This document shows, in pieces, positions 5,464 to 54,664 of a DNA stretch of 64,000 nt. A program made the position numbers and the translations under genes. The stretch spans positions 486,449 through 550,448 of the forward strand of contig BCKL01000016.1 of the NCBI GenBank assembly GCA_001600635.1, read 5' to 3'. The stretch is from Leucosporidium creatinivorum. Taxonomy: Eukaryota > Basidiomycota > Microbotryomycetes > Leucosporidiales > Leucosporidiaceae. Within the stretch, counting starts at the first letter, position 1, and the number at the start of each line of letters is the position of its first letter. Under the pieces are notes generated by a model that saw only the letters and a program-made list of their open reading frames with translations, searched no databases and was not told where the DNA came from.

Positions 5464-7669
5464 TCAAGCCCCCTGAGCATGTCCACTCGCCACCCAAACC
5501 TCGGCCACAGTCTCCCACTCGCCAACGACCCTCGCCATCCTCTGCGCCCCCTCCTCACCCTTCTGATCCACGTCAACGTCCGCTTCAACCTCCTCACTGT
5601 CCAACAGCAGTAGCCTCAATCCTCCAACCCTCATCAACCCCACCTCGGTCGGCAAGAACCTCATCTTGAATGTTGAAGTCGCCGAACTCCGCCTGCTCGG
5701 CGGTGGCGGCGGGGGAGCGGGATCGGCGCTATTGGACTTGGCCGTGGGAGGTAGCGGAGGAGGAAGGAGGAGGAATTCGTCAAGGTGAACGACGGCGTTG
5801 CCGAGGCGGAGGATTGAGGAAGAGGGCTTGGGCGAGGGCGTTGGAGGCGAGGAGGAGGCGAGAGGGAAAGGAGGGGGTAGGATGATGGGGGATCGTGAGC
5901 CGGCTGCAGTGGAGGTTGATGGAGCGGCTGTGTCGACGAGAGGTTGAGCGCCGGCTGCCGCTGGAGCGTGAGGCTGCGAAGGGAGCGCCAAAGTCGTCGG
6001 CGCGGGCGAGGGTAGAGGGAGAGGTCCTTCTCCTCTTCCACTTGGCGCTCCCCCCGCTGCTCCTCCCATTGGCGTCCACTGAACATGCTGAGCGACCAAT
6101 CTGACCTTCCTCCTCTTCCCATTCGACGGCGTCAAGTCCCGAATTTTCACCGCGAAGTGCACCTCGAACGGCACCTCTCGGACAATCCTCGCGGACTTGA
6201 TCGCCTCGACCGTAAAGTCGAAACTCAGTCCCGTCGCATCGGGCATCGCGGCGGGTGGTGGGCCAGCAGGAGGAGGCGGAGGAGCGTCGGAGCCCGAGGG
6301 TCCCTGCTGAGCGGGTCGGTAGGGGGCGGGAGCTTTGATGGGGCTGCTGGTTGCTGGCGGTGGAGCAGAGGTTACGGCGGAAGAAGGAAGGGGTTTGTCG
6401 GCTACTGCAGGTGCGGAGGGGAGACCGAGAGGAGCTGGCGGCTGAGGGACTCGTCGACCGAGCATAGAGGTTTGAAGACGGCCGACTTCGCCGTGTGGTG
6501 TATGCCAGACGATGTCCTGGTAGTCATTAAAGCGGGAGAAGAGGTCAGCCGGCGTTCGCAATGCTAGCGACGACCTCGAGCAGCGCCGAGCGAGAGTGAA
6601 CTCACCAGTCGACCGAGACCTTGCGACGACCCTGGAGGCGCTATCGGCACCTGAGGTGTAGCCGAGAGGACAAAGACGAATTGCCGCACCGCCGCAGGAG
6701 GCAGCAGCGATTCGGTACCGACAAAGAGCCCTTCGTTAACGTCCTCCAGCTTCCAGCCGACTACGGGCTCGAATCGCATCCGCTCGAACCACATGGCCTG
6801 CTCGCACTGGTTCTGCACTTGAACCTCGAGGAATAGCTTGTTGCGTTCGGTGACGGAGAGGGAGGTGGTAGCGATGAAGGCGTTCGGCGAATGAGCCTTG
6901 GTTCGGACGCTCAGAGGATTGGAGACCTGAAGGGAGGCAGAGAGGTGAGCAATGATACGAGAGCTAAGGCGCGAACGTTCCGAAGCCTACTTGGAACTTG
7001 TAGACCTGTAGGGAGTTGAAGGGAAGGTCAGCGCGAGGCTCGGGCGAGCGGTAGCGGGCACTCGGCGAACGTACCTTGCGGAAGCTACGGCTGATGGACC
7101 TTCCTCCTTCCAGCGGTACAGCGTAGGTGACGGTGCAGACCAGCGAGTGCATTCCTAGCTCCTTGATCTCATGCGAGACCAAGCCCTCCATGCTGTCCCC
7201 CGGCGCGAGCACCTCGTTGGGCGCGGTAATGGTCTGCAGGTGGTGCTTGCTGCCCGCCGATCCAGCTGGGGCTCCTGCAGGTCCAGCGGTGTGCATCTCC
7301 ACCTTGAGGATGGGAGCGTTGACCGTCGTCGACGAGTCGGGCACTTGGGCCGCGTCGTTGGACAGCGAAAGTAAGGCGGAGAAGGTCTCGCTGTAGTCGA
7401 GTAGGTGTCAGCTATGACTTGGAAGGTTATCAGCTGCCAGCTCACCCCAGGTAGATGGTCCCAAAGGCGTTCGGCAGCTGCAGCGCGCCGCTCAGACCGT
7501 GATCGCGTCCTTCTGAAGCGCTGTTGAGCTCCAATGCCTGGAGAGCAGCACTGCCGAGCGATTCCTCCTCATAGTAAGGTGTGCTAGAGGGTACGAGCGA
7601 GGGACGAGCCGTTCGGAGCACCTTGAGCGCGAGGAGGTGCGGCTCGCGCGGCGGCGGAAGCGTGGCCAT
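5464..7669 (-). CDS. TRAPP complex subunit TRAPPC13 (DUF974) homologue
   Basis: Multi-exon. The start at 7669 gives an N-terminus with EPHLLALKVLRTARPSL, then LPNAFGTIYLGETFS across an intron, matching the start of the TRAPPC13 family. Later exons carry VSHEIKELGMHSLVCTVTY, FRK-VYKFQ-VSNPLSVRTK and DIVWHTPHGEVGRLQT, all family landmarks in the right order. A Pro/Ser/Ala-rich insert of over 100 residues (about 5750-6450) sits before the last beta-rich block and is longer than in animals. TRAPPC13 is a peripheral subunit of the TRAPP tethering complexes acting in Golgi and autophagy traffic. The VYKFQ segment is a 15-nt exon. The gene shares a 209-bp divergent promoter with the F-box gene at 7879. 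Confidence 0.88.
6991..7005 (-). other. 15-nt microexon of TRAPPC13
   Basis: Flanked by TACAG on its 5' side and GTAGG on its 3' side. It adds five residues, VYKFQ, between ...SRSFRK and VSNPLSV. Human TRAPPC13 has FFKFQVLKPL at the same place, so the tiny exon completes a conserved strand. Confidence 0.75.
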
Positions 7670-7878
7670 GGCTGTAGCTGTATCGAAGTCTACTGCAGAG
7701 CAGCAGGCGTAGAGTGCTGTCGCTGAGCGCCTGCGAGTCCTTCGGCCGTGCGAAGGCGGTTGCGAGACGAGCGAAGAGGCGGAGGTCAAGCGCCGTCTCT
7801 TGGATCTCGTCGCTTAGCTCTGACCACGTCGGCTCGCCCCGGTTCACTACAACAGCTTGATATCACAGAATCAGAAAG
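7670..7878. promoter_or_regulatory. Divergent promoter, TRAPPC13 / F-box gene
   Basis: Only 209 bp separate the two start codons on opposite strands, so both promoters must lie here. No specific site could be recognised. Confidence 0.6.
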
Positions 7879-9165: not shown

Positions 9166-9248
9166 GGGTGAGCAGAACCGGCGAGGTCGGCGTCGTCTCG
9201 TTCCTCCTCGACCTTCGCCAGCGGGAAGGGAAGCCAACAAGCTACCAT

Positions 9249-9862
9249 CCCTCGGTCGCCCTCTTCGCCGCCTTCTGCCTCGCCCAGCTCATCTCGTCGA
9301 TCATCGCCGCTTTCGGAGACTGGGGCTTCACCTCAGTTGTACGTTAGAGACTTCGATTCTCGACAGCTCTCGAGCTCGAGCTGACCTTCTCCTTCTTCAC
9401 TCTTCAACAGGAGGGCATCTCGGGAGGATACATCGGAATCACCTGGATCTGGAACATCGTCTGGTTCTTCCCCCTCGACCTCATCAAGTTCGCCATGCGC
9501 GCCCTCATCAAGACCTACAATGCACGCAGGGGCAAGAGGGTCCCCGAGGCCATCAAGCACCAGGATGGCGTCCCCATGTCGCGCACTCAGTCCCGCCACG
9601 AGTCGCTCTACTCCAACCGTACGTCTTCACCGCTTCATTGTCTCGCTACTTCGGCGCCGAGCGCTGACCTTCGCGTTCCCTTCCCCTCCTCGCCTCGTCT
9701 TCTCTCTAAACAGGTGTCTCCTTCATCAAGAGGGCTCAGCGCTCGGTCGGACTCGGTGGCAAGCACGTCTCCATCTCCCAGAACGAGCTCGCGCGTTTCA
9801 GCTCCCACCAGGCTCAAGGAGCCGGAGCTACTCTCGCTCGCGCTTCCTCCCGCCCCCAGTAA
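9249..9862 (+). pseudogene. 5'-truncated copy of the PMA1 C-terminal region
   Basis: Begins at [13 protein letters not shown] of the proton pump and keeps its last exons, intron signals, stop codon (9860-9862) and 3' UTR in sense orientation on the plus strand. It lacks all catalytic domains and any visible promoter of its own, so it cannot encode a pump. Near identity to the parental gene at 12021 means the copy is recent or kept alike by gene conversion. Confidence 0.9.
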
Positions 9863-10168
9863 ATGGGTGTGCGCTTTTTTTTACCACTCGTAGCCCCCTT
9901 TGTACGAGTTCCCCCTTCCCCATCATCCATCCCATTTCACTAGATCTTCGCCATTCTTCTCCTCCCCCTTCCCCCTCTGCACTCCTTCCCAACGGTTTTG
10001 CGCTACTCTCCCTCGCTCTCTCTCTCTCCCTGACTGCTAATAACCGATCTCAAAGTACCTCAAGTATATAATGCACCCCCTTAACCCTAACCGTCGTCGT
10101 CGTCTGCCCTCCCTGCGAACGACCTGAGAGCCGAGCGAGAGCGAGAGAGCGAGTGAGCGAGCGCCGAG
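9249..10168 (+). repeat. Left arm of the PMA1 inverted repeat
   Basis: 920 bp that match the reverse complement of 11715-12634 base for base (coordinates sum to 21883), apart from two mismatches seen near 9340 and 9400. The arm starts abruptly inside a PMA1 exon and ends in PMA1 3' flanking DNA. The spacer is 1546 bp. Confidence 0.95.
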
Positions 10169-11714: not shown

Positions 11715-12634
11715 CTCGGCGCTCGCTCACTCGCTCTCTCGCTCTCGCTCGGCTCTCAGGTCGTTCGCAGGGAGGGCAGACGACGACGACGGTTAGGGTT
11801 AAGGGGGTGCATTATATACTTGAGGTACTTTGAGATCGGTTATTAGCAGTCAGGGAGAGAGAGAGAGCGAGGGAGAGTAGCGCAAAACCGTTGGGAAGGA
11901 GTGCAGAGGGGGAAGGGGGAGGAGAAGAATGGCGAAGATCTAGTGAAATGGGATGGATGATGGGGAAGGGGGAACTCGTACAAAGGGGGCTACGAGTGGT
12001 AAAAAAAAGCGCACACCCATTTACTGGGGGCGGGAGGAAGCGCGAGCGAGAGTAGCTCCGGCTCCTTGAGCCTGGTGGGAGCTGAAACGCGCGAGCTCGT
12101 TCTGGGAGATGGAGACGTGCTTGCCACCGAGTCCGACCGAGCGCTGAGCCCTCTTGATGAAGGAGACACCTGTTTAGAGAGAAGACGAGGCGAGGAGGGG
12201 AAGGGAACGCGAAGGTCAGCGCTCGGCGCCGAAGTAGCGAGACAATGAAGCGGTGAAGACGTACGGTTGGAGTAGAGCGACTCGTGGCGGGACTGAGTGC
12301 GCGACATGGGGACGCCATCCTGGTGCTTGATGGCCTCGGGGACCCTCTTGCCCCTGCGTGCATTGTAGGTCTTGATGAGGGCGCGCATGGCGAACTTGAT
12401 GAGGTCGAGGGGGAAGAACCAGACGATGTTCCAGATCCAGGTGATTCCGATGTATCCTCCCGAGATGCCCTCCTGTTGAAGAGTAAAGAAGGAGAAGGTC
12501 AGCTCGAGCTCGAGAGCTGTCGAGAATCGAAGTCTCTAACGTACAACCGAGGTGAAGCCCCAGTCTCCGAAAGCGGCGATGATCGACGAGATGAGCTGGG
12601 CGAGGCAGAAGGCGGCGAAGAGGGCGACCGAGGG
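11715..12634 (-). repeat. Right arm of the PMA1 inverted repeat
   Basis: Holds the native last exons of PMA1, its stop codon at 12021-12023 and about 300 bp of 3' flank. It pairs with 9249-10168 in inverted orientation. Confidence 0.95.
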
Positions 12635-18730: not shown

Positions 18731-20373
18731 TTAGTATGGGCTCTGACTCGGTCCGTCGAGGTAGCCTCCCTTTAAGAGTAAGGCGACAAGGTCAGCAAAC
18801 CGGCTTTGAGGCGAAAGAGAAGGGGAAGAAGGGAGACCCGAGAAGATCAACTCACATCCCAGCTGAGGAAGAGAAGCGAGAGAAGGCGAACGGTTAGCGC
18901 TGCTCGTAACTCAGGTACACTCGCAAGCTCACCTATCCTCGGTGATGCTCCTCCAGGCGACGTAGATGAGCGCGACGCTACCCGTCTCGAGGAGGGTGGC
19001 GATGAAGGACGAGTCGACCTTTGCGCTCGTGCCGGTGCAGATCTTGTGGCCGAGACCAAAGTAGGCGGCTTGCGAGAGGATGAAGAGGACTGCTGCTCCC
19101 GAGAAGAGGGCTGTTGAGATACGAGAGGTGTGAGCGAGCGATTCGACGGAAGCGAGCGAAAGGAGGAACGAACCAAGAGGCTTCTTCTCCTTGAGCACAC
19201 GGACGACGACGCCCAGCTGGACCACAAAGTAGAAGGCGGCAGCGACGGCTGGCCAGATGATGGTGAGCACGAAGAGCCAGATGGAGTGGAGGTTCTGAGG
19301 CGGGTCGGATTGGAAGTAGTTGGTGATGGTGAAGCCAGTGTCGGCGCCGATGTAGCCGGATCCGATGGTGAGGATCGCGCCGAAGATGACCATGGGCTGG
19401 GGGCGTAAACCAGGTTAGCGAGAGTCGATAGAAGGGGAGCGGGAAGCGCACGATGGAGGAAGCGAGGGTGCCGTCTTCAACGACCTGGAGCGAGAGGAAA
19501 GCGACCCATGCGAGGACCCAGAAGCTGTAGAGGCATCGAGATCAGTATCTGCTGCACCCCACAAGCTCCTGAACCACTCACAGTCCGACAACGAGCCCCA
19601 AGTGAACCGCCGAGACCCTGTCGACGTCCGAACTGGTCAGCTCTCGCCTTCCCCCAAACGGACACACTCAAGCTCACCAAGTAATAGCGGTGCTTCCCGC
19701 CCTCAACAATCCTCCCGTATCTGCCAACTGCGCGCCTTGCACCAAAGCATACATCGCAAAGAACACGCGCATCTCCACCCTTCCGACCGCCGCAGCCCTC
19801 CTTCCCGCCGCCAACGCCAATCCCACACCAACAAACACGCTCAATCCACACACGACAATGTTGGCAATGTTGCCTAGGGATCCTGCTTGACCGCCCGCGG
19901 CGCCCATGCGAGGGATGTAGCAGGAGGGGTTGACGCCGACGCCGAAGTTGGCTAGGGTCGAGGCGAAGGAGGGGGAGGATTCGGTGGGGAGGCCGAGGAG
20001 TTGGGTTGCAGGCGCAGCGATGCTCTTGGGGTCTGTTGTGGTGTAGCGAGCGAAGGAGGTCAGCGAAAAGCGTGGTGAGAAGCGCGTGACTTTGAAGCTC
20101 CGAGATGAGCGATGGGAAAAGGACGTACGGACGAGCAGCTGACGGAAGAAGAGGTTACAGATGGGTAGTGATGGGACATCCCTGCAGGCCTGTAGTGGAG
20201 GAGCAAGCAAGGGAGTAAGTTGCGGTTCGAAAGTACGTCAGTTGCTGGGTGCGATCGAGCGGAGGCGAGTCGTACTCTGCTCCTCAGCAGCTGTAGCGCA
20301 ATGCAGGGTGGTCTGCGATGATGTAGAAATCTGTACTAACCCAGTCGAAATTGCCGAAGCTGAAGAGAACCAT
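18731..20373 (-). CDS. CHS7: Chitin synthase export chaperone
   Basis: The start at 20373 gives MVLFSFGNFDW, spliced to ACRDVPSLPICNLFF, the Chs7-type N-terminus. Several hydrophobic helices follow (for example GNIANIVVCGLSVFVGVGLA, LGLVVGLFWVLAWVAFLSLQ, SIWLFVLTIIWPAVAAAFYF). The end carries KVDSSFIATLLETGSVALIY then WRSITEDSWD and GGYLDGPSQSPY. Chs7 is an ER membrane protein needed for export of chitin synthase 3 and similar enzymes. The ITEDSWD signature is only complete if a 7-nt exon (18856-18862) is included between two short introns. Family length and helix pattern agree with a whole gene. Confidence 0.88.
18856..18862 (-). other. 7-nt microexon of CHS7
   Basis: The seven bases CTGGGAT lie between an acceptor (CCTCAG) and a donor (GTGAGTTG). 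With them the frame runs ITED-SWD-GGYLDG to a stop at 18731, matching the conserved Chs7 C-terminal SITED.WD motif. Skipping the exon shifts the frame. Confidence 0.75.
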
Positions 20374-22849: not shown

Positions 22850-23073
22850 TGTGGCGTGAAGACAACGAGCGAGGGCTTCGCAGCGATCTCAAGTCGAGGG
22901 ATCGTCGGAGGCTCGCAGGTCGTTCGCGAAGCTGATGTGTGCTCTGAAGCATATTTGGATTGCTTGCCTACAAAACTGAACCGGCTCCTGCAGGCCTTTG
23001 TACGTCCCTCCTCATCGCCGAACCTCGCGCGCCAACTCCCTCGCCCATTCTCCTTCTAACCCGTCACCCGTTA

Positions 23074-25676
23074 CTACCCTCTCAGCTCAATCATCCTCGC
23101 CCTCCTCTCCTCCTCCTCCACCTCCAGCCCCTCCTTGAAGCTCGAAGCCTCCGACTCAGCCCTCGGCTTAGCCTCGACCGAAGCAGCGAGCTCTCGGTCT
23201 GCAAGTGCATACCGAGCGTCGTCTCGGTTAGCAAACCACGCGACGACCTGAGTGAAGAGTATCTGAGAGAAGGTGATGACGGCGGAGAAGATGAAGCCTT
23301 TCTTGAAGCGAGGGGCCTCTGCGAAGGTGGGGAGAGGGTCAGCTCGGGGTTGAGAGGATCTGAAGGGGAGAGACGCACCGACGGTGGGGTAGGTGAGTAG
23401 ACCGATGAAGGCAGTGGATGCTTGAGCGACAGTGTTCATGACGATGAGGCTGCGACGAGTAGGCGGGTCAGCGATCAGCTCGGCATTGAACAGGTCGAGA
23501 GTTGTAAAGTAAAGCTCGGAACGTACACGATGACACGCTCCTTCGGATCACGACGAAGGATCGCATTGCTCCATCCGTAAAGAGAGCTGGACTGGGCGTT
23601 GGTCCACGCCAGTAAGTTGTAGCCAACAAAGAGAGCGGCGGTGTTGCCCGTGCCGCTGGCCTGCGAGGGGGTTCGGGGTCAGCAACAGGCTCATGTAGAA
23701 ATGGAAGCGGAAGAGAGAATACACACCAAGATGAGAATCCCAATGAGGAGGAAGGTGTTGCAGCCGGTTATGGCGAGCCTCGGCGAACGAAGGAGGTCCT
23801 GCGAAGTGGTGTCGATGGTCAACACGATGCTCTATGTTGCTCAGTAGCTCGATCTAGAGCTGTGAGACGTACTGCTGAAAAGTTGGTGATAATGGTGAAG
23901 CTGTGAGGAGGGCAGGATAGCGTCAGTCAGTGGCGGGAATCGACCTCGGCGCAGAGGCTTGAGAGGCGAAGGAGGGCAAGCGTGAAGCGGAAGACAGCTT
24001 ACGGTATACCCAGTGCGGAAGCAGTGACAGAGAGATCGTTGACCTTGGGAAGGCTGGTCGGGTACATGTGCTTGAGCCAGAGGAGGTAGGAGGCTGTCGG
24101 CAGAAGAGAAAGGCCGAGAGATGAGGCTCAGCTTTGTGCTCGAAGCGGAGGGAGAGATGGGCGACTAGACCTACAAGAGTTGGGTCCGCAGTTCCAGAAC
24201 AGGATGTCCCTGTATCGAGGCAAGAGGTCAGCTCCAAGCTGCTCGGCGAAGGCGACGAGAGCAGCGAACCAGAACGTGAGGACGTAGATTTTCCATCCTT
24301 TCAAAACCTTGCTAAAATCCTTCAAAGAGAAGGCGAGCACCTCGGACGTGTGCCCTACGCGCGCGAGCCGATCTTTGGCGAGCTGGATCTCCTCCTTCGA
24401 GATGAAGAATGAGTGGCCTGCGGGGGTCGGTAGAGGATCAGCGGCTGATTGAGAAATGGAAGAGATAGCTTACACTTGTCTGGTGTACCGGGCCAGAGGA
24501 GGTAGCCCACGAGTCCAAGAGGGATCGAGATGATGGCTGCAAGACGAATCGCCGAGGTCAGCGCCAACTCGTAGAGAGTGAGATAGAAAGCGGTGTGAGA
24601 TATAGACTAGCCGTTTATGATGAACTGCGACGAGTGGAGAGAAGGAGGGATAGGAACAGAATCAGTACCGTTGCTCGTCCAGGCTTGACCTCAGCGACCC
24701 CGAACACCACGCCGAGGGTCAGACTCACCATCCACCGCCACGCCGCGAGTCCAAGATGCCCATCTAAGCCCCTCAGCGTCGCCGACTGCAGCAGCCCCGA
24801 AGTCAATGTGCCGAGGTAAAGCCCAAGGTAGAAGATTCCTCCTCGCCGAGCAATCTCGTCCTTTCTATACCACGACCCGAGGACCCAATGGACCGCAGGA
24901 AAGAACGCGGCTTCGAAACATCCTACGAGAAAGCGGTAGGCGATCATCTCGCCGTAGCTCTGCGTGCGGTATTGCAGGAGGGTCATGATGCCCCAGCCGA
25001 TGTCGAGGGTTGGGACCACGATGTTCATTGGGATCTGCGTGGGAGGGCTTGTCAGCTGGCGAAGGTACTGGATAGCGTGTGGTGCTCACCTTGACAAAGA
25101 TCCAGATGAAAGGAAGCTGCATGACGGCCGCTCCGACGATGTCTACGACGGCGAAGGCAGATCAGCTCGGCTCTCTCCGGACCAACAGCGACCTGAGCAC
25201 TCACAGACGGTCTGAAACTGCACCAGCTCGTTTCCATGGAAGCCCAGCTCCTCACTCATGCCGCTGACGTACTGCAGAGGGCGTAAGGTGGAGGGTCAGC
25301 GGTCGGCGGCGCCGGTCGACATTGGCGCGGAGGAGAGAGGGTGGACCTACAGCGTTCGAGATGTTGGTCTGGTCAAGGTATTTGCACCAGTAGACGGCTA
25401 CCGAGAAGAGTACGATCAACGCGTCGAGCTTCATGCTGTAGAGGCATTGACTCAGCTCGGCGTTGGACTCGGAGCAAGGGGAAGGGCAGCAATGGCCTCG
25501 CGAGGTATCAGCAGCACTCACATCAATCGGCGCTCGGCGGGCGTATCATACTTGGAGAACCACTGGTACCAGTGTCGATCTTCCTCGTCGATGAGCTGCT
25601 GAGGCGCCTTGACGGGCTCGACGGTCGAGCTGACGCCAACGAGTCCTTCCTCCTTAAGTTTGTCGGCCAGGGACAT
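23074..25676 (-). CDS. MFS transporter, allantoate/anion:cation symporter (Dal5-like) family
   Basis: Roughly a dozen exons encode about 500 residues with 12 predicted helices. The start at 25676 gives MSLADKLKEEGLVGV. Typical sequences are LDALIVLFSVAVYWCKYLDQ followed by TNISNAYVSGM, IVVPTLDIGWGIMTLL, AYRFLVGCFEAAFFPAVHW, SWYRKDEIARRGGIFYLGL, FWNCGPNSSSYLLWLKHMYP and LAWTNAQSSSLYGWSNAILR. The SWYRKDE.A.R motif marks the Dal5/pantothenate-type symporters of the plasma membrane, which carry small organic anions or vitamins. The exact substrate cannot be told. One exon is only 13 nt and is followed by a probable GC-AG intron. The C-terminus is a charged Glu/Arg-rich tail. Confidence 0.88.
24612..24624 (-). 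other. 13-nt microexon of the MFS transporter
   Basis: Thirteen bases after a GTCGCAG acceptor, followed by GCTAGT. They read FIIN plus the first base of Ala and join WRWM to AIISIPLGLVG, the expected helix of this family. The downstream intron would start with GC rather than GT. Confidence 0.65.
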
Positions 25677-35054: not shown

Positions 35055-35544
35055 GGCTGTGGTGCAGAGTAGTGTAAGCTGTGTGCTCTGCACTGCTCTG
35101 TTTTAGCCGCTGGTACTCACCGAGAAGCAGCGAGAGAGTCGCGGGAACGAGGTTGTGGCAGGAAAGCAAGAGACGGCTCGAGCTCGCTGAGGCTCGGGCA
35201 AGGCGCCCCAAGCTCGAGTGGGTGCATGCTCGAGACGATGCTCTCAAAGTGTTTCACAGAGGCCAAGCAGAGCTACAGCTTCGCAGGCGACCCATCAGCT
35301 CTCCCTTTCGCCCAATCAGACCTGCTACCGCTCTCGCAAGCTCGGCGAGGGGGCCGAGGCTTTCGCTGGTCCTCCTGCTCCTTGGAGTCTGCGCTCGCCT
35401 GAGAGCATGACTAGTACGTCGGCTCTAATATGTCTCCTGTATTCGAAGAAGCTTCGCAAGCCGTCCTCTGCCTGAGGGAGAGAGTTTAGGCGAACCTCGG
35501 TGAAGGGCCTGCTCTTTCGGCGGTCGCCGTGAAGGCGCTCCAGC
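34501..35544 (-). repeat. Right arm of the F-box inverted repeat
   Basis: Mirror of 28606-29652 (inner coordinates sum to 64153). It carries the promoter and exon 1 of copy B. The unique centre, about 4.85 kb, holds the diverged parts of both F-box genes and the L34 gene. Confidence 0.9.
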
Positions 35545-35716: not shown

Positions 35717-37523
35717 CTAAAGCTTGGCACCGTTGGTCTCGTTGACGAGCACGTAGCGGTAGCGAGCCTTGGAGGCGTGCATGTCCTGGACCACTTGGTT
35801 GACGTCCTTCATGGGGCGCTTGATGATCCATCCCTTGATGTCCTGCTTGGCAGCGAGCTCGAGCATCTCCTTGATGATCTGGGGCGAGCCAATCGCCGAG
35901 CCGGTGAGGTGGATATTGTTCATGATGAGAGGGAAGGTGGGGAACTGAGGAAGAGGCTCCTCGGGGGCGCCGACGACTGTCAAGAGACGGTCAGTGAGGT
36001 GCGAGGAGGCGAATGAGAGAGCTAAAGACGCACAGACGAGGTGTCCTCCAGGCTTGAGCAGGCCGGCGTACTCGAGCAAAGGCATCTTGGAATCGTTGGT
36101 CGTGGCGATGATGAGGTCAAGAGTGCGGCGGTTCTCCTTGGCCCACTTCTTGTCGGCGCCGTGCGTCTCGATGAAGTTAGTCGCGCCCATCTTCTCAGCG
36201 TCGGCCTTCTTCGATGCCGAATGGGAGATGGCAGTAACGTTGGCGCCGAGCGCCTTGGCGAAGAGAAGACCGAAGTGACCCTGCACGCGAGGCGAGTTAG
36301 GAAAGTCAGCGATGAGCGATGTAGGTCAGCGAAGAGCGATGAGGGATGACTGTCGACCTCGCTCGACCTCGGCAAAGGGAGGGAGAGCTTACGAGGCCTC
36401 CGATGCCGATGATTCCGACGTCCTTAGCGGTCGTTCCAGCTCCATATTGGACGAGAGGCGAGTAAACGGTCACTCCTCCGCACTGTGGAGTGTAGCAAAA
36501 TCAGCCAAAGCCTGCGACAGAGGCAAGAAAGCGACTCACGAGCATGGGAGCGGCGATGGCGGGGTCGAGTCCGTCGGGGATCTTGACCACAAAGTGCGAG
36601 GGAGCCCTGTGCATGTCGGCGTATCCTCCGTATGACTTGTCACCCTTGCCGTTGCCTATCGAGCGGCCGTTAGCGGGCGATTCAGATCAGGGAGACGAAC
36701 GCCGAGCCGAAACTCACCCTCGCGGTAGTATTTGCCGTCGTAGGTGCCAACCTGGCCCTTATCGCAGTAAGACTCGCGGTTGTTCTAATATTCTAGAGCG
36801 TCAGTGAGTACTCGGAAGTCCCTCAAGCTTCCGACTTACCTTGCACTGGCCGCACTCGAGGCAAGAGTCGTTCTGAGCTCCAACGCCGACCATGTCACCC
36901 TCCTTGATGTGGGTGACCTCGGATCCAACCTTGACGGCGATTCCTACAATTTCATGTCCCACGACCTGATTTGCGGAGGCGGAGGTCAGCCACAGCGGTG
37001 CGGACGAGCTCGGTGAGCATGTAAGCTCGCCTGGGGATACTCCTGCTTGGGGTTCCATCCCGCGGTGGCGCAATGAATGTCCGAAGCGCAGACTCCTGGA
37101 CGTCGGGAACGTGTGGGAGGTCGTCAGCAGGTGCATAGCGCGGTACAAAGCAGCAAGAAGCGAGCTGGGAGCACCAGGGAGCAACTCACCGCAGTAGAGC
37201 TGTAGTAGAAGAGTGACGAGTGCATCAAGCGGTTAGCTGAATATTCTGGCTCAAGTTTTGGGTCTTCAAGCTCACAATCTTGACTGTAGGTGAAGAGCGA
37301 GGTCAGCATCCGGGATCGAGATCAACGGCTCGTGATCCAACGTACTGTCGACATCAGTCTCGTCCCATCCCTTGGGGGTATAGCTGAACTTCCTGAAGCT
37401 GCCATCCTTGACGCAGTTCCTGTAGTGGTGCAGGGGAGGGTCAGCGATGCCTCGAGATCAAGAACGACTGCGTGGGGCTCACTTGTCGAAGGCCCCCCAT
37501 CCAGTGAATTCAGTCTTGGACAT
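35717..37523 (-). CDS. Zinc-dependent, NADP(H)-type alcohol dehydrogenase (ADH6/cinnamyl-type)
   Basis: About eight exons. The start at 37523 gives MSKTEFTGWGAFDK. Splicing through 8- and 10-nt exons yields LYCGVCASDIHCATAGW, whose CGVC.SD.H carries the first catalytic Zn ligand. GHEIVGIAVKVG holds further Zn-site residues, and CLECGQCKNNRESYC is the structural Zn loop. GIIGIGGLGHFGLLFAKALG is the nucleotide-binding fold, and FPLIMNNIHLTGSAIGSPQ is typical of the ADH6 branch. Such enzymes reduce aromatic and branched aldehydes in the cytosol. One intron probably starts with GC (GCGAGC). Stop at 35717. Length and motifs indicate an intact gene. Confidence 0.92.
37190..37199 (-). other. 10-nt microexon of the alcohol dehydrogenase
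   Basis: CTCTACTGCG between TACTACAG and GTGAGTTG. It encodes LYC plus the first base of Gly, and the Cys is the catalytic zinc ligand. Confidence 0.78.
37276..37283 (-). other. 8-nt microexon of the alcohol dehydrogenase
   Basis: TCAAGATT between CACCTACAG and GTGAGCTT. It gives IKI between DETDVD and LYCGVC, keeping the frame. Confidence 0.78.
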
Positions 37524-38239: not shown

Positions 38240-39867
38240 TCACTCCCACTTGCTCTCCGCCTTCGCCACCCTCCTCTCCAGCTCCTCAATGACCCTGCGA
38301 TTCTCCTTGAGCTGCTCCTCCATCTACTTTACTCCAGCAAGGCGCACCGAAACGTCCAGCCCCACGGCCTTGAGGAGCGAAATCGGCGCAAAGGTGCTCG
38401 GCGCAAAGGAGCTCGGCGTAAGGTCGAACATGCCGGCAAGGAGATGAGCCGCGAGGGCAAGGTGAGGGTAGGGGTAGTAGCGGGAAAAGATGGGATTGTG
38501 GAGGTTGATGTACCAGAGGAGAGGGCCGACGAGGAGGGTGTGGTCGATGAAGTAGAAGAGGGGAAGGGGGAGCTCGGCGGTAAGGGCTGGGCAGAGGTCG
38601 GCGGTGGTGAGAGTGTGGAGGCTGACACCCCAGTATAGAGCAAGGGCGGGTTGAATCCACCACAACAGCATCCCGACGATCCAGAGCGTAATGCTTGCGG
38701 TGAGGCTGTAAACCAGCGCCGAGAGCACGACGTGTTGCCAGACCCGAGCGAGGGCGAAGCCTACCCAAGGGAGGAGGAAGCCTACTCCATAGCTGAAGCC
38801 CTCGCATAACCAGCGAACCACGTGGATATAATCGCCAGCAAAGATCGGGCGCATGAAAGCAAATGTGTAGGCGTATAGTGAAGTATCCGTTTCCGCCGAG
38901 CTCTCCCTGATGTAGATGGGGACTGAACTCCAAGTGGTGCAGGTACAATCCTGACTGTACTGTACTTTTCGCCAAAAAATACAGCCCCTATCTAGAGCCT
39001 GACCTATCTAGAGCCTGACAGTACAATCACAGCCTCTCGGATCGGACAGGCGCGTAACCGAGTGTCGAAAGTAGCCAGCGCGGCGCTCGGCGAGTGGTCT
39101 ACGAAGCGCGACTTGGTCTTCAAACAGCTCGAGAGCTCTCAATCGATGGCCAAGTAGTCGAGTGGTTAACTTCAGTTTATCTCTGCTCATTCAAAGCTCT
39201 CGAGGCGGGTTCAATTCGCTTCCAAGTTCACTCGTTATCCTTCGGCGCCGGCTTTTCTCGCCAGAAAATTTCTATTGACATGTAGATTTTGCCGGAAGTT
39301 CATCCTTTTGCTGCGCATAACCTACTACACGACTTCTCGCTGCCTGCATGTAGCACAACATGTGATAATTTGCCAGCTCGGCGTTGACCTCGCGACCTTT
39401 CTCCCTTCTTCAGCCTCTTCCGGCCGACACAGATGCAGAATGTACCTGTACTGAGATGTATCGCGTAACATTGCGGGGTAAAGAGGTACAGTACAGAAGC
39501 AGAGGTCGTATTTCGCAGGTTTTGTACCACTTGGAGTTCAGATGGGGAACCCTACCCAGAAGACAAGGCCTAGGAGGAGGGCGGGGAGCGCGGTGATTCC
39601 GACTAGCGGGGGGAGTGGCTCCGTATCCCGGCGAAAGTTTATCGCGCCGAGGAGGATTTCGTAACGAGCATCCACCGTTCGGTTCTCGTTGAAGAAGGCG
39701 GCGAGGCGGGAGTATAGGCTCTGGGCTGGTGACGCGGTGCTGGGCGAGAGTTTCGTGCCACACGTTGCGCTGCTCGAGGGCTCAGAGCTAAGCTGGGCGG
39801 ACGGAGAGCTGCCGGAGGTGCTCGGCGCAGGCATCGCCGAAGTCGACTTTCGGGCTTTGATGGCCAT
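38240..39867 (-). pseudogene. Membrane-protein family member split by a DNA element
   Basis: A paralogue of the intact gene at 57389-58363. The N-terminal part (39867 to 39549) reads SPAQSLYSRLAAFFNENRTV, then ITALPALLLGLVFWVGFPI. The 619-bp element at 38923-39541 follows. The rest (38915 to 38324) is open in the same frame and includes FMRPIFAGDY, WWIQPALALYWGVSLHTLTT and YPYPHLALAAHLLAGMFDLT. Without the element and one 7-bp target copy the frame is continuous for about 305 residues. After the first stop at 38324 the frame goes on with a coiled-coil tail (ENRRVIEELERRVAKAE) to 38240, matching the relic at 28338, so the stop may be a second lesion. The function of the family is unknown. Confidence 0.8.
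38923..39541. mobile_element. 619-bp non-autonomous TIR element (MITE-like)
   Basis: The ends are perfect 16-bp inverted repeats, CTGAACTCCAAGTGGT at 38923-38938 and its complement at 39526-39541. CTGTACTGTAC recurs near both ends in inverted orientation. It is flanked by a 7-bp target duplication, ATGGGGA (38916-38922 and 39542-39548). There is no transposase frame inside. A 16-bp direct repeat (CTATCTAGAGCCTGAC, twice) lies near 38987-39020. The superfamily is not clear: hAT elements make 8-bp duplications, P-like elements 7-8 bp. Confidence 0.88.
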
Positions 39868-42060: not shown

Positions 42061-44590
42061 TTACTCCTTCATGTAGGCGATAGGGCGAAGGAAGGCCTTG
42101 GGTCCGAACCAGATTCCCTGTGAGCGTGTGGAAAGCAGAAGGGAGCGGTCAGCGCTGAACTCGTCGCCGAGGAAGGAAGGAAGGAAGCGAGGAGAGCAAG
42201 GGAAGGGAAAGGAAGCTCACCTTGACGAAAGCGTTCCAGTAGGCGAAGGGGAAGATGTCCCTGCACCCAAGCGCACCATCAGCATTCTCCTCTCCTCCCT
42301 CACCTCAGCTCAGTCTCCCGCGAGCCGAGCCGACCAAAGACACAGCAGCAACTCACTTCTTCAAGTAGTAAAACAGCGCATTGGGCTTATCCTGCGACCC
42401 GACAAAGCGGGAGAAGGTCTCCTTGGGGACGCCGCCGTACTTGAACTCGGCGAGCATGAGCTCGTTGTGGCCGGTCAGGAGGGGGCTGTTTGAGGCGAGA
42501 AGGGGGATCAGCGAGGGTGCTAGGAAGAGGAGAGAGACTTAGGACGGACCAGGAGGCGTAGCCGTCTGTTCGTTGCGAGCGGGAAAGCAGAAGGTCGGTT
42601 AGCTCTCGCCTTCGTCCCTTCGCGCCTGCACCTCACTCACCATACACCGCCTTCAACTCCTCTCCATCCATGTGTGCCCTGAGGTTATCCACCAACACGG
42701 GCGCCTGGGCCGTAATCGCCGCCGCCGTTTTGGAGTTGGGCATGGACGAAGCATCGCCGAGGGAGAAGATGTTAGGGTACTTGGTGTGCTGCGTCGTGGC
42801 GGGGTTGACCGAGACCCAGCCGGCGGCGTCGGCTTGATCAACCAATCGAAGATGGGTCAGCTCGGGAGAAGGGAGGGAGGGAAGGCGAGGGAGTGAGAGA
42901 GAGAGGGGTGAGGGCGTACCGATGGGCGAGTCCTTGATGAAATCAGGCGGGCACTGCGGCGGGGTGACATGCAGGAGATCATAGGCTTCCTCCACCGTCG
43001 TTCCATCACTCTTGGCAAAGGTGGCCTTCTTGTTCTTGCCGTCAATCTTTACGAGATTGTGGTTGAAGAGGCCGTGGACGTCGCGCTCCTTGCGCAGGGC
43101 TTCGAGCGCGGCGGCGTACTTGGGGACGGCGAACATGGCTGTTTTGGAGTGTGGGGGAATGTGGTGTGGTGCGAGACGAGAGGGCGGGGAGGAGGAGAGG
43201 GAGACGAGGGTCAGCGCACGAGATCAGGCAGAAAGCAGCAGAGCACTAAAGACGGACCAGGTCCTCCAGTGGCAAAAGTGATGTCCGTCTTGTCGCGCTT
43301 GCCGTCCTTCTTCCACTGCGAGAGGGCCTGTTCGAGGGAGGGAGAGATGGGGGAGAGGGTCAGCTCGAGCTTTCGTTCGCGGGGCGATGACGGCCAAGAG
43401 GAGGTCCGAAGAGTGTCAAGACGTACCATCCACATGATCTACGACGAGGAGGAGAACCGACAGAGCACAGGATGAGCTTCTAGACGGACAATCGCCGAGC
43501 CTGCCGAAAGCTACTCAAGCTTCGGCTCGACTCAAAATCGCACAGCCACGATAAGCAGGGAACTCACCTTCTGCGGCGCTCCCGCGCACTTGATAATCCC
43601 AGCAGGCTGGGTGAAGATCTATTCCCACCCAAGTTCCCCTCCCTCAGTCAGCTTGCTTCCTTTGCCTTCTCCCCGCCGAGCCGAAACTCACCGCCCTCCC
43701 CCCTTGAAACTCTTGGATATCGCTCCACACCTGCTCGACACTATCCTCCTTATAAATCGTCGAGACCTTGCTGTTGGGGTCCTTCAACGCCTCGGAAAGC
43801 CCAGGAATGGCAGAGAAGTTGGTCTTGAGCCCCGGGGCGACGATGAGGTAGTCGTAGCTGTTGCGTTGTGGGGTTGTCGTCGTGTCGTGGCGAGGCGAGG
43901 CGAAGAGGAGGAGGACGAGGAAGGCAGGGTGGTTGGTCAGCAAGCCCCTTTCGACGCTAGCTCGGCGTCGAGGAAAGTTGACAACCTACGAGATCTCGTC
44001 CTTCCCTCCCTCGACCTTGACGAGGTTCTTCTCCGGCTCAAAGCTCTCTACATTCTGTTGATAAAGCTTGACGCCCGAGGGGATGACGGACTCGAGTGGA
44101 CGGGACATGTTGGTGAGGGGGGCGAGGCCGGCGCCGCTGTGTTGCGCCGAGATGAGACGAGGACGGGGTCAGCGAGCGGAAGGGGAAGGAGGGTGTGGGA
44201 GAGCGTACACGAGCGTCCACCCGGGCTGGTCTGTATTCCAGGAAAGGACGAACCACACGACGGCGAAAGGAAGGGAGAAGCGAATGCCAGTCAGTCAGCT
44301 CCTCGCTCATTCTCCCAGCTCGCAGCAGCTCTTGCACCCAGCTCAGCGAGCAGCAGGACACTAAAAAACGTACAATGATGCCTCCCCGCCCCATCTACCA
44401 CCGCGACACTCCCCTCCCCAAGCGCCCTCCCCTCGCTCTTAAAAGCCCTCTGCAGCTGAGCAGCAACGGTAGTCCCTGCGGTCCCTCCTCCGACGATGAG
44501 GAATTGATGATGCGTCGAGGCGAGGCGGAGTTGCTGCCTTGCTACATTCGAGGTCAAGGTCAGACGGAGGGGGCGGGAGGTGAGGAGCAT
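42061..44590 (-). CDS. Mitochondrial sulfide:quinone oxidoreductase
   Basis: Many exons, start at 44590: MLLTSRPLRLTLTSNVARQQ is a mitochondrial presequence. HHQFLIVGGGTAGTTVAAQL is the FAD-binding motif, followed by YQPGWTLVGAGLAPL, SYDYLIVAPGLKTNFSAIPG, IIKCAGAPQKIMWMALSQW, LLHVTPPQCPPDFIKDSPI, NPATTQHTKYPNIFSLGDAS and YASCPLLTGH. The cysteines of KCAGAPQK and SCPL are those that carry the sulfane sulfur in human SQOR and fission-yeast Hmt2. The enzyme oxidises sulfide at the inner membrane and passes electrons to ubiquinone. Two microexons (22 and 16 nt) complete the YQPGWTLV and DGYASC motifs. Stop at 42061. Confidence 0.94.
42550..42565 (-). other. 16-nt microexon of SQR
   Basis: Flanked by AACAG and a GTCCGT donor. 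It reads the end of Asp, GYAS and two bases of the Cys codon, so the catalytic cysteine codon is split across the next intron. Confidence 0.75.
44209..44230 (-). other. 22-nt microexon of SQR
   Basis: Flanked by AATACAG and GTACGC. It encodes QPGWTL with split codons at both ends, giving HHYQPGWTLVGAGL, a conserved SQR motif. Confidence 0.7.
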
Positions 44591-48879: not shown

Positions 48880-49835
48880 TCCCGCTTCCCTCCCGTCCTC
48901 GCCCATCCTGCGTCTCTCTCCCTCTCCGCCTCCCTCCGTAACCTATCCATCTCCTCCAACCTTAACCTCAGCCGACGATTCTCCTCCGCGACGCTCAACG
49001 TCGAGCCCACTGTCTTCCTCGCCGAACCGAACGCCGAGATGAGCTGGTCGAGGGACAGGTCGAGGGTACCGGCGAGGAGGATGAGAGCTTAGAGGATGTA
49101 TAGAGAGATGTGTAGGGAGGGAGGGATCCAGTCGGTCCTGATATGCATGGCGAGGAGAGGCGAGAGCAGGATGAGGTGGTCGATGAGGTAGAAGAAGCCG
49201 GCGGGGAGGCGAGAGGTGATAGTACAAGGTGTGAGATGGATAGTCGATAATTGATGGAGTGTAATGGACCATAAGAGGGCGAGGAAGGGGACGCAGATGG
49301 CGCAGAAGAGGAGGAAGATAGTGTAAGCGCCAAGGCCGAGCACGAAAAGCGCCGGCAACCATAGCATGGCCCAGACGATCCAACTCCCGACAAGCGTAAT
49401 GAACCAGGTAACGCTGTTGACGCTCGTCTGCACTAGCCACCACCAGTTGGCGAAGAAGGCGACAAAGTGCTCGGACGCCGTCACGCTTGGATCGTTAGGC
49501 GGAAAAGCGGCGAACTGGATGTTCAAGCCGCCCATAACAGCACCCATCCCGTATGCTATAGCGATGCCCTCTTCTTGGGGAAGGAGGAGGCGGAGACGCT
49601 CCTCAACGGAACGTAGGCGTAGGAGGGCGAGGAGCGACTCGAATAGTGATGCCGAGGGGGTGGCCTTCGACTGCTCCTGGGAAGGGGTGGTGTCTGGGGA
49701 GCTCGGATTGCTGAATTCCTCGAGGTGCGATGCAGTGGACGAGGTGTGAGGCTGCGAGAGCGCCTCATCGTCGAATTCGAAGGTCGTTCTCGGAGACGGG
49801 GAGTCGAGCGACCAGGAGTTGTGCTGAGGTGTCAT
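48880..49835 (-). pseudogene. Membrane-protein family member with a stop before its tail
   Basis: An open frame of 248 codons from 49835 to 49089 reads SASLFESLLALLRLRSVEER, then hydrophobic helices including LGAYTIFLLFCAICVPFLAL, LLWSITLHQLSTIHLTPCTI and AGFFYLIDHLILLSPLLAMH. It aligns with the intact copy at 57389. A TAA after SLYIL is followed in the same frame by ALILLAGTLDLSLDQLISAF and a charged helix (EENRRLRLRLEEMDRLRREA), which fits the family's tail. Either a truncated but working protein or an early pseudogene. No intron signals surround the stop. Confidence 0.6.
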
Positions 49836-50087
49836 AGGGGTGATGCTGATGTAGCCAAGGGCGTGGATAGAGTATGTAGTATGGCGGAAAAAGAGTCAGC
49901 TCGAGAAGACGGCCGACATGCGAGCGCACAGTCGACCTGGCTCTGTGAGCCCTCCGATCCTTCGCGCCCTCGCATCGAGCAGCAGGCATACAGCTTTCCC
50001 CGCCCCCATCCTTGAAGCACAAATTGAGATTAGAGAGCAAAGACACACACTACAGACCCAGAACAAGCTGACCCCTCCACACCCCAC

Positions 50088-53000
50088 TCACGCCGAACCA
50101 TTCCACTCGCCTTTCAACTCCTCGGCGAACTTCTCACCGATGGCGATCAACGGCGCCATCTGTGAGGGAGAGACGCGAGACAGTTAGCCTTTGGATCGCT
50201 TTGAGCAAAGACGGCGAAAGCTCACAGGATGTCCACTGAGCTGCTCGGGGAAGATGGAAGCGTCGCAGACCCTGAGCGAGGTCGTTCCGTGCACCTTAAG
50301 ATCGCCGTCGAGGCAGCGGCCGAGGGAGACGGTGCCGATCTGATCGTTCGTAGTAGCAGGGAGAAGGTAAGAGGGTCAGCCAAGCTGAACGGGAAGGTAG
50401 GAAATCTCGGCGATGCTCGTGATCAACGCGGGCGACAAAAGGGCGGGACTCGGAGGGGATGATAGATCGCGCAACACAGCTTGAACAGAGACGAAAATGA
50501 GCCGAGCTCACAGGATGGTACAACACCTCCGCATGCCCACGAATATACTCCTCAACCTTTTCATCCGACCATCTCTCGACGTCGATGAACTCGGGGAAGC
50601 TGGGATCGTTGGAACGGAAGGGTCCGACAAGAAGAGACGAGAGAGGCTCCGTGTTGGCGACCTGTGGGCAGAAGAGCGGAGTCAGCAGCTGAGCGCAGTC
50701 GACGCGGCGAGGGTGGGAGAGTAGACGAGTTGGACCTTGTAGCAGAGCTTGAGACCCCAGGCGAGGAGCTTAACGTCGTGAGGGTCGGAGAGGAATCTAT
50801 GTAGAGATGCAGCTGTCAGCAGTCGGCTCAGTCGGATATCTACGACCTCGGCGCAAGCTTCGACCCGCCAACTCGGCCAACTCACTGAGCATCGATGACA
50901 GGCTTGACAAAGACATCCTTGCTGATAATGGTGACCTTTCCATGGCTCTTGGGACGAAGAAGGATCGGCGCGAGCGAGAAGAAGTCGTCTGTCGGCGAGG
51001 AGGGAGACGGTCGGATCAGCTTCCGGGGCCGAGTGAGCGCTAACGATTGCAAATGTCGGCTCACCTCCAGATCCAGCAGGAGGCTTGATCGTTCCGTGCT
51101 TCGCGAAGACCATGGGAGCGTCGATGAGCTCGATGTCGGGCTATAGAGAGGAGGAGCGAGGTCAGCCGAGCAGCTCAAGTCTCAACGACCAACACTGCCC
51201 CAGAGACAGTACTCACGCCGACACCACCAGATCCAAGATCCTCGACATCAGCAGCAGCAAGCCCAGAAAGCTTAGCAAACTCCTTGTCGGTCGAGCGGAC
51301 GAAAGCGAGCGATTCGGCGATCTAGCGAGTGAGAGATCAGCGGATAAGCTCGGGGCTGAGAGCTTCAGCAGGACTCACGTTGGAGGTGAGAGGTCCAGTC
51401 TTATACCTGAGCCATTCGACGAGAGGAGAAAGTCCCTTGAGAGGATCGGCGACCCATTGCGAAGAGACGCCAGGCTTGGCGCTGCGAGCGAGGGAGACCG
51501 AGGGGAAGAAGAGGTCAGTCGGGCGCACTCTTCAACGTTGACAGCTGCAGGCGTGTACGGAAAGCTCACACGAACGCCATGCCGACACTGAGATGATCTT
51601 TGAGGTGACCTCCGACCTCGGGAGCGTCGACGAGGACGGGCACGCCGGCGTTCTCCAGCTCCGCACGAGGACCGACACCAGAGACCTTGAGGATCTGTGA
51701 CAAAAATCATCAACTACTGGTCTCTGGGCGAGGCGAGCTCGCTGGACTCACCTGCGGGCTTCCGAAAACTCCGGCAGTGAGGATGACCTCCTTCTTGGCG
51801 CTCGCGCGATAGAGAGGACGGGCTTGAGGCTCGCCGCTGATGGTGGGCCAGGGCTTGTCGAGCGAGGTGAACTCCACTCCGACGGCGCGAGGAGGGGTCG
51901 AGTCGGAGAAGAGGATGCGAGTGACCTGCGAGAAGAGGTCAGATGATCAGCTCGGCGAAGGCAGTCTACGCGAGGAGCGAGCGTACGGTGGCTCCGACGG
52001 CGACGGTGAGGTTGGGACGAGCAGTGACCTCGGGCGTGAGGTAGGCCGTAGCAGAGGATACTCGAGCTGTTCGGCAGGTAAGGTCAGCAGTCGAGCTCGG
52101 CGATCCAGTAATTCGGCGTTCTACTCGCAACCAGCCTCGATGAACGTCTTAGTCCTCGAAACCCCCATAGTCCCCTTCCCCTCCTTCTTGTCATTCACAT
52201 CCGCCCTCACCTCCATCCCCAGTGATTTGCAAGCATGCACGAACGCGAGGCAAAGCTCGTTGATATAACTGTAGCCAGTCTTGACGGGTCCGGTTCCAGC
52301 GACAACGCTCTTGCCTGCCTCGTCGAGAGGCCAAGCGGAGGACTCGACGTGCGATTGAGATTTGGCGAAGTAGGGCTCGAGCGAGGCGGACGAGAAGGAG
52401 GGGAAGCCGAGAGCGGCGATCTCGTCGAAATCGGAGGGGCTGCAGTGGTGGCACCTATGATTGGTGGAGGGTCAGCGGTGATGCAGAGCAGCTCCATAAG
52501 CTCAAGGAGAACATACATCATGGCTGCGCGAGAGGAGTGGCGTGTCAGCAAAGTCTCCGCTTCTCGGTCGCCGAGCTCCCTTCACTCACCGTTGATGCTC
52601 GAACAGCCACCCAGCATTCTGGCCCTCGGGCAGAGGAGACTACGTCCTCTCACTCCCTTCGAAGGCGCGAAGCGGTAACCCCACTCGGCGGTTTGGTGAG
52701 CAAAGAGACGAGCGAAGGTCGCCGGGATGCGAGAGAAAAGCTGAAGGGTGCCGGCTTTGCCTGCTTCGAGGAGAAGGACGGAGATGTTGGGGTCCTCGGA
52801 GAGTCTGTGTGCGATACTGACAGGTCAGCAGCTGCTCCGAGATGGGCTGAAGGAAGCCGAACTCACCGCGAGGCGAGCACACATCCGCTGGTGCCCCCTC
52901 CGACGATGATCACGTCGTATTGCTTGCCCTTTGCGTCGTCTAAACTTCCCTCCTTGATCTCTGTACCCGCCTCCGAGAGGTCACTGCTTCCCGGATACCA

Positions 53001-53153: not shown

Positions 53154-53410
53154 TGGTGGCGACGGAACGAAAGAGATGAGCTGGCGAAAGAGCGGGGAAG
53201 TCGAGCGCTCGGGGTAGGGGCGAATTGCCGTGCCGTCGTGTCAGGAGGGGCGCCTGATCAGCTGGTGTAGCTCAGTAGAAGTGAGATCTCCCTGCTGTAG
53301 CGAAGCGAAACGAGCCGAGATGTGGTTGAAGGGAGAAAGAGACGTAGACTCGCGCGCTTCGACTCCGCCTCTTTCGCTTCGACCAATTCGCCTCTGAGCT
53401 ATCGACCAAC
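53154..53410. promoter_or_regulatory. Divergent promoter, GMC oxidoreductase / SET protein
   Basis: 257 bp between opposed start codons; it must serve both genes. Confidence 0.55.
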
Positions 53411-54664
53411 ATGTTCGCTCATCGCTTCGCAAGGACAGCTACAAGAGCAAGCAGAACTGCTGTACCGCGATCTACCTCGGTCGCCCTCACTTCAACGCCT
53501 CACCGTCGCAACTTTTGGTCCTCTTCGGCGCCGACTGAAGCACCACTGGAGCTAGCATCCAACTCCATCCCCTCCATCAGCGATTCTCTCTTCCCCGTCA
53601 TCCTTGCTGTCGTCCTCGCCGCCTCCAACTCGGAGGACGATGAGCGGCCCTCCCCCTGGCGCGTCGAGTCTACCTCCAAAGGGTTCGGCGCCTTCGCTAC
53701 TCGGGAGCTGCATCGAGGAGAGCTACTCATCGCCGAACGACCGATCTGCGTGTGGCCGCAAGGATTGAGCGAGGCGCAAGCAAAGGAGCTGTTCGAGCAG
53801 ATGGGCGAGAAGGAGCAGAAGGTCTTCATGCAACTATCGAGGACCGAGGGCGATGGACCGGTGCAGGCTTTAGATGATATTCGAGCAATTCGGGCGACGA
53901 ATGGATTCAGCATTCAGCTGCCGGGGTCAGGATTGACCGCCGGTTTTGTGTTTCCGCGATTAGCAAGGTGTGCTGTATTGAGATGTAATTGTCTTTGAGT
54001 CGCCACTGACCGCCTCTGGACTCTTCATAGGATCAATCACAGCTGGTGCGTCTCGGCGCAGTTTCATTCCCCCTTCGCCGAAGCCGAGCTGACCTCCTTC
54101 GTCGCTCCTCCAGCACCCCCAACTGTTCGCAAGCCATGAACGTGAGTAGGAGTAAACGACGTCACGAGCTCGACTGCTCACACGCTTCTTTCTGCAGTTC
54201 GAGACCCTCCGCATGGAAGTCTACGCCATCACCACCATCCGCCCCTCCGCCGAACTCGCCATCGAATACCTCCCTCTCATCACTTCCACCCGCGCCGAAC
54301 GTCAGCGAGCTCTCAAAGATTCATTCGGCTTCTCGTCATGCCTATGCTCCGTCTGCACTGCACCCCCGGCGGAAGTCGAGAAGAGCGATGCTCGGCGGAT
54401 GGAGATCAAGAAATTGGGAGAGGGAGTAAGGACAGGAAAGAGTGATAGGAAGGGGACAATGGTCAAGCTGGAGAGGATTAGGGTGCTGCTAGAGGAGGAG
54501 GGATATGAGAGCCTCCCCGAGTTTGGTGAGTCTCGCTGCTCTCTCGCTCGGCGGACAGCAGAGGTGACCCTTCCTGTCGCTCTGCAGAGGACGTCTCCGT
54601 TTCGAACGCCTACGCTGTCTATGCTGGGATGTACCAGCGCTCTCTACGGGAGGGGCGACAGTAA
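53411..54664 (+). CDS. SET-domain protein (possible lysine methyltransferase)
   Basis: Five exons (53411-53967, 54031-54045, 54114-54141, 54198-54525, 54588-54664) join to 334 residues in frame. The N-terminus is Arg/Ser/Thr-rich (MFAHRFARTATRASRTAVPR), suggesting mitochondrial targeting, with a hydrophobic stretch SLFPVILAVVLAAS. The SET domain begins STSKGFGAFATRELHRGELL and has INHSCTPNCSQAMN, the AdoMet/catalytic core, then ELAIEYLPL and a short CLCSVC post-SET motif. It resembles small fungal SET proteins. The INHSC motif is encoded by a 15-nt exon and TPNCSQAMN by a 28-nt exon. Substrate unknown. Confidence 0.82.
54031..54045 (+). other. 15-nt microexon of the SET gene
   Basis: Between TTCATAG and GTGCGT. 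It encodes the end of Arg, INHS and two bases of Cys: the heart of the SET active-site motif. Confidence 0.8.
54114..54141 (+). other. 28-nt exon of the SET gene
   Basis: Between CTCCAG and GTGAGTAG. It completes Cys and adds TPNCSQAMN. Confidence 0.8.

Follow-up and report, generated by a model that had tools for sequence, protein, structure and literature searches.

Microexons in seven unrelated genes of Leucosporidium creatinivorum and their abundance relative to random intron placement

The window analysed here is a stretch of 64,000 nucleotides (nt) of contig C16 (BCKL01000016.1) from the basidiomycete Leucosporidium creatinivorum, whose genome assembly comprises 27.7 Mb in 63 contigs (GC content, 59.6%). 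Seven unrelated genes of the window, those for TRAPPC13, CHS7, MFS, ADH, SQR, GMC oxidoreductase and SET proteins, contain thirteen fitting candidates for internal coding microexons of 7–28 nt (Table 1). A preliminary description of the window had listed ten lengths in these genes (7, 7, 8, 10, 13, 15, 15, 16, 22 and 28 nt), all of which were recovered by a gene model blind to homology. The limits of the span described there coincide with exon edges, 6991 belonging to the TRAPPC13 15-nt exon and 54141 to the SET 28-nt exon. The 12-nt SQR exon is additional, and the lengths 22 and 28 nt are each present twice.

Table 1. Microexons and supported GC-AG introns, with positions in the window
Gene	Feature	Positions	Strand	Evidence
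TRAPPC13	Microexon, 15 nt (VYKFQ)	6991..7005	-	Gene model, splice sites, Pfam; gain reached in 1/200 shuffles
CHS7	Candidate exon, 22 nt; possibly terminal, read to a stop	18748..18769	-	Gene model only
CHS7	Microexon, 7 nt (SWD)	18856..18862	-	Gene model; Pfam weak
MFS	Microexon, 28 nt (PFTIITNFSA)	23873..23900	-	Gene model, splice sites, 0/200 shuffles; Pfam jointly with 13-nt exon; paralogues
MFS	GC-AG intron, directly after 13-nt exon	24537..24611	-	Gene model; yields reading found in paralogues
MFS	Microexon, 13 nt (FIIN)	24612..24624	-	Gene model with GC donors, paralogues, 1/200 shuffles; Pfam jointly with 28-nt exon
ADH	GC-AG intron, restores GHE motif	36966..37030	-	Gene model; reading YPQ/VVGHEIVG
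ADH	Microexon, 10 nt (LYC/G)	37190..37199	-	Yeast Adh6 alignment, gene model, Pfam; contiguous in both paralogues
ADH	Microexon, 8 nt (IKI)	37276..37283	-	Yeast Adh6 alignment, gene model; contiguous in both paralogues
SQR	Microexon, 16 nt (DGYASC)	42550..42565	-	Human SQOR alignment; gain 27.7, 0/500 shuffles
SQR	Microexon, 12 nt (IMWM)	43427..43438	-	Human SQOR alignment; gain 13.1, 0/500 shuffles
SQR	Microexon, 22 nt (YQPGWTLV)	44209..44230	-	Human SQOR alignment; gain 25.2, 0/500 shuffles
GMC	Microexon, 7 nt (AMM)	52517..52523	-	Paralogue L039; gain 17.9, 0/500 shuffles; 5/200 with gene model alone
SET	Microexon, 15 nt (RINHS)	54031..54045	+	Human SMYD2 alignment; gain 24.0 jointly with 28-nt exon, 0/500 shuffles
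SET	Microexon, 28 nt (CTPNCSQAMN)	54114..54141	+	Human SMYD2 alignment; joint gain 24.0, 0/500 shuffles; Pfam

Gene models, homology and shuffle tests

The gene finder was built de novo from a coding Markov model, models of donor, acceptor and branch sites and a distribution of intron lengths, without an exon-length prior, and was self-trained on 264 kb consisting of the window and the 200 kb that precede it. Its final output comprises 78 genes with 666 introns and 589 internal exons; in the round preceding the final one, predicted introns had a median length of 66 nt, with 90% shorter than 167 nt. Intron density is about 5 per kb of coding sequence in the predicted genes and 8.7 in the four genes that were aligned to homologues. 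With GT donors alone the model already gave twelve of the thirteen candidates, and the MFS 13-nt exon emerged once GC donors were permitted. The final model calls GC donors in 31 of the 666 introns, many without consensus, indicating over-calling, and only the two GC-AG introns in ADH and MFS are counted as supported. In the window genes it places 22 internal exons of ≤30 nt, nine besides the thirteen; a 21-nt exon in SQR, omitted by the homology alignment, and 16- and 9-nt exons in ADH, upstream of the aligned protein, look false.

The candidates are flanked by short GT-AG or GC-AG introns, the longest exceptions measuring 297 nt (after the CHS7 22-nt exon) and 143 nt (before the SQR 22-nt exon). 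Of the twelve inspected together with their introns, most show a donor close to consensus, a branch site resembling CTRAC and a YAG acceptor.

Splice-aware protein-to-DNA alignments used yeast Adh6, human SQOR, human SMYD2 and the GMC paralogue L039 as queries, and retained the microexons of these four genes. Forbidding exons shorter than 30 nt cost 30.9 score units in ADH (the joint gain of the 8- and 10-nt exons, matched in 0/500 shuffles), 66.0 in SQR, 24.0 in SET and 17.9 in GMC. Pfam bit scores were also compared between parses with the microexon and parses in which it was skipped, extended or excluded by a 30-nt floor. The ADH_N score is 81.3 bits with the two ADH microexons vs. 70.7 without them, and GMC_oxred_N scores 118.4 vs. 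107.3 bits with and without the 7-nt exon, whose counterpart in L039 lies in one exon encoding GGCSSINAMIYQHG. The SET domain scores 43.9 bits with both microexons and 20.2 bits, under the Pfam cut-off, in a homologue-guided parse with a 30-nt floor. For MFS, the 13- and 28-nt exons jointly raise MFS_1 from 65.3 to 81.6 bits; residues homologous to the 13-nt exon lie within one exon in three paralogues, and the match of the 28-nt exon to paralogues was judged by eye. At the level of sequence, the microexons of MFS, ADH, SQR, GMC and SET are thus confirmed by solved homologues, unsplit paralogues or Pfam, and appear to be needed for a conserved protein.

Support is weaker for the TRAPPC13 15-nt and CHS7 7-nt exons, as is the case for their being needed for a conserved protein. 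TRAPPC13_N scores 120.4 bits with the 15-nt exon, 107.8 when it is skipped and 120.3 with an extended exon, which supports its predicted inclusion but not its exact donor; a PDB search with TRAPPC13 gave no matches. The 7-nt exon of CHS7 raises the Chs7 score by just 3.3 bits (235.4 vs. 232.1). Together with the 22-nt candidate its gain was reached in 0/200 shuffles under the gene model alone. The 22-nt exon itself is unproven: its acceptor and donor are weak, and it may be a terminal exon continuing to a stop codon. It lacks homology support and is located past the Pfam domain.

A flexible reader or model might always find a few bases between AG and GT to mend a frame, and it is against this artefact that the shuffle tests weigh. 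The DNA between the flanking exons was shuffled 500 times and scored with a homologous protein in combination with the splice model, the gain being the score benefit of permitting exons shorter than 30 nt. Some microexon gain arose in 104 to 319 of the 500 shuffled interiors, and errors of this kind did occur in the gene model (the SQR 21-nt and ADH 16- and 9-nt exons, and two of eight flanking genes described below). The observed gains nevertheless exceeded all 500 shuffles in six of six clusters, together holding eight microexons, and the residues encoded agree with homologues and unsplit paralogues, making artefact an improbable explanation. Under the gene model alone, the gain in ten clusters was reached by 0/200 shuffles in seven, by 1/200 in two (TRAPPC13, MFS 13 nt) and by 5/200 in GMC; the total score was reached in four clusters (MFS 13 nt, 3/200; SQR 22 nt, 1/200; SQR 16 nt, 4/200; GMC, 2/200). 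The gene-model gains for SQR and MFS also include the other microexons of those genes, and the introns used to train the splice model include those flanking the tested microexons.

Decayed or mis-assembled loci, with microexons masking frame errors, would be suggested by the frame break that ADH initially showed at its GHE motif. That break is accounted for by the GC-AG intron at 36966..37030, whose inclusion lifts ADH_N from 59.3 to 81.3 bits, and parses free of stop codons account for 331/332 residues in the stretch of Adh6, 400/401 in that of SQOR and 562/589 in the GMC paralogue. Decay or mis-assembly is therefore scarcely credible. GC-AG introns make up 6.4% of 125 introns flanking microexons vs. 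3.7% of 430 others, a difference too slight for an association to be claimed.

Abundance, intron placement and splicing

In a null model, introns were placed at random in each predicted coding sequence and internal exon lengths were counted. Internal exons of ≤28 nt number 87 of 589, vs. 94.7 expected. The 46 genes scoring ≥100 contain 71 vs. 79.5 expected, and the four homology-aligned genes hold 8 among 34 exons vs. 7.5 expected. Introns flanking microexons are of nearly usual length (median 69 vs. 64 nt). A dedicated microexon-recognition system, or selection favouring microexons, might be proposed from the many predicted microexons in 264 kb; their number is no higher than random intron placement predicts and their flanking introns are nearly ordinary in length, leaving such a system a very remote prospect, although no search aimed at a conserved enhancer confined to the surroundings of microexons was made. 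A special class of microexons was rejected on the ground of abundance. At a density of about 5 introns per kb, the microexons form the short tail of the range of exon lengths, somewhat depleted when false predictions are allowed for.

Several observations weigh against microexons simply left by chance between dense introns. Exons of ≤10 nt number 20 vs. 36.1 expected and those of ≤50 nt 133 vs. 156.6; in the most stringent set, 38 genes without their end exons, there are 51 exons of ≤28 nt vs. 61.7 expected (range 50–75). A penalty on small size, or losses during detection, thus exists, and false predictions mask more of it. Donors of introns flanking predicted microexons are weaker (mean 3.91 vs. 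5.09), the four homology-aligned genes were picked for holding microexons, and the gene model generates at least the three apparently false microexons named above for SQR and ADH.

One alternative is that the exons are regulated cassettes, whose skipping under certain conditions would switch the activity of the protein; a fungal example is the 20-nt exon reported for Trichoderma Xlr2 (PMC11121469). The lengths found here argue against that type: 10 of the 13 candidates are not multiples of 3, so skipping them would shift the frame, and among the predicted internal exons of ≤28 nt in genes scoring ≥100, multiples of 3 are not in excess (21/71). Several of the exons, moreover, encode family motifs (INHSC, SINAM, YQPGWTLV). 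Regulated skipping is accordingly unlikely as an account of these exons.

Residues matching the microexons lie within one exon in paralogues of ADH (L032, L033), GMC (L039, L040) and MFS (L046–L048), L040 having an intron 2 nt from the first junction of the GMC microexon. The paralogues were parsed with proteins of the window as queries; the blind model gives the same motifs in one exon for L033 and L039. Exact intron positions shared with the seven paralogues amount to 0/6, 0/7, 1/11, 1/10, 0/10, 0/9 and 1/11, or 3/64 in total. Together with the unsplit residues, this suggests that the introns creating these microexons were gained here or lost there.

From the exons observed, with their splice sites, frame, homology and counts against random placement, we infer that the exons are used constitutively, that splicing works by intron definition and that gain or loss of introns is their source. 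The exons are probably real, constitutive protein-coding microexons, left where dense introns read by intron definition fall close together. The introns are mostly short, each with its own donor, branch-like site and acceptor, and most likely it is across the individual short intron that the spliceosome pairs these sites, as in intron definition. An exon between two introns would then not need to be measured, and there would be no strict minimum exon size. With intron positions nearly independent among paralogues, two introns lying close together would leave a microexon between them by chance. Intron definition had been put forward in the preliminary description; it fits the short introns (median 66 nt) and exons whose small size would preclude exon bridging, and is an indirect reading of a kind already proposed for basidiomycetes (PMC2397502). 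Should RNA confirm near-random exon lengths, the genome would allow direct measurement of the smallest exon that a spliceosome tolerates.

Flanking genes, annotation and other features of the window

The expectation that many more microexons lie hidden is borne out by the 45 predicted genes in 264 kb that contain an internal exon of ≤30 nt. Sixteen genes were taken from outside the window (score ≥50, exon ≥5 nt, >60 residues from either end; for some, the first cluster only). Nine had a Pfam match, and eight of these also had a parse without microexons. The microexon parse was better in six of the eight (28.0 bits vs. no match; gains of 21.2, 30.1, 27.7, 2.5 and 25.8 bits); in the other two it was worse, by 2.3 and 6.3 bits, which weighs against the reality of those predictions. 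Scaling 87 per 264 kb to 27.7 Mb, with three quarters taken as real, suggests several thousand microexons genome-wide as a rough extrapolation. Microexons lie in core motifs of a flanking protein-O-mannosyltransferase (17 and 27 nt; L016:4810-8174 (-)) and a flanking Ras-family GTPase (L017:8408 to L018:14 (+)), in which a 15-nt exon encodes DTAGQ.

Two further proposals of the preliminary description stood in part. That standard annotation truncates proteins agrees with a model test, to which this support is confined: a 31-nt floor breaks 10 of the 45 genes into at least two pieces, with one lost, and a 30-nt floor brings the loss of SET score given above. SET, among the ten split genes, is probably two genes fused by the model. 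That microexons recur at conserved motifs agrees with the proportion of codons identical to the homologue (35/56 in microexons vs. 711/1764 elsewhere); this is ascertainment bias, because homology alignment itself selects such exons, a point partly made in the preliminary description. A pipeline that enforces a minimum exon length near 30 nt will split genes or damage family motifs here, and we offer the null model as a means of testing exon lengths against random intron placement before microexons are treated as special.

Elsewhere in the window, positions 356-4506 encode a protein in which Pfam identifies PAS domains and, at the C-terminus, a GATA finger, and which we take to resemble white-collar photoreceptors. 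Two arms of 920 nt at 9249-10168 and 11715-12634, complementary at 100% and separated by 1546 nt, form an inverted repeat. The right arm contains the 3′ end of a gene, presumably for a plasma-membrane H+-ATPase, and the left-arm copy was fused by the model to another gene; the repeat may be a recent duplication or an assembly palindrome. Similar genes in inverted orientation at 28816-29727 and 34426-35337 match over 912 nt at 95%, with diverging 3′ halves, the left copy having a Pfam F-box. Three predicted hydrophobic proteins (38324-38854, 49089-49845 and 57389-58266) share by eye a motif like LHxL...FYxxD, with no Pfam match in the stretches scanned.

Comparison with known systems

The closest likeness is to the bglA genes of basidiomycetous yeasts, whose exons were defined by comparison with cDNA (PMC9142197). 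Exons shorter than 30 bp make up 10 of 22 in Rhodotorula minuta (smallest 6), 3 of 19 in Hamamotoa singularis (smallest 18; data that the authors drew from previous work) and 2 of 17 in Sirobasidium magnum (smallest 5), and mean introns are 59–81 bp. R. minuta and H. singularis, both Pucciniomycotina, have one GC-AG intron each, described as flanking microexons, and the bglA of Sterigmatomyces elviae has seven exons and no microexons in that account. Internal coding exons of <30 nt, short introns and GC-AG introns beside microexons are common to both systems. The bglA work concerns one gene family, whereas here seven unrelated genes in one window are accompanied by a count against random placement.

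In the intron-rich basidiomycete Cryptococcus neoformans, exons down to 1 bp and 5.7 introns per gene are reported from RNA-seq (PMC3990503), in contrast to the 666 introns predicted in 78 genes here. That short exons complicate annotation has likewise been published (e.g. PMC3990503). Microexons of 2–10 amino acids in nearly one third of the P450 genes of Phanerochaete chrysosporium (PMC1184071) concern one superfamily, and its authors stress alternative splicing. The one-nucleotide exon of Fusarium CYP621A, inferred by homology and later backed by reads (PMC12940212), also lies within a conserved motif, but is a single conserved case in an ascomycete. The rule that a cassette microexon "usually" has a frame-keeping length is stated in PMC11121469, whose own 20-nt exon violates it; the regulated cassette type, with such lengths, differs from the majority of lengths found here. 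Intron definition, with short introns recognised as units, was proposed for ascomycetes, basidiomycetes and zygomycetes by McGuire and colleagues (PMC2397502) from retained introns, not microexons. Microexons, adjoining GC-AG introns and intron definition are thus already reported in basidiomycetes; relative to the portions of these papers drawn on here, the new elements are the instances themselves and the null model.

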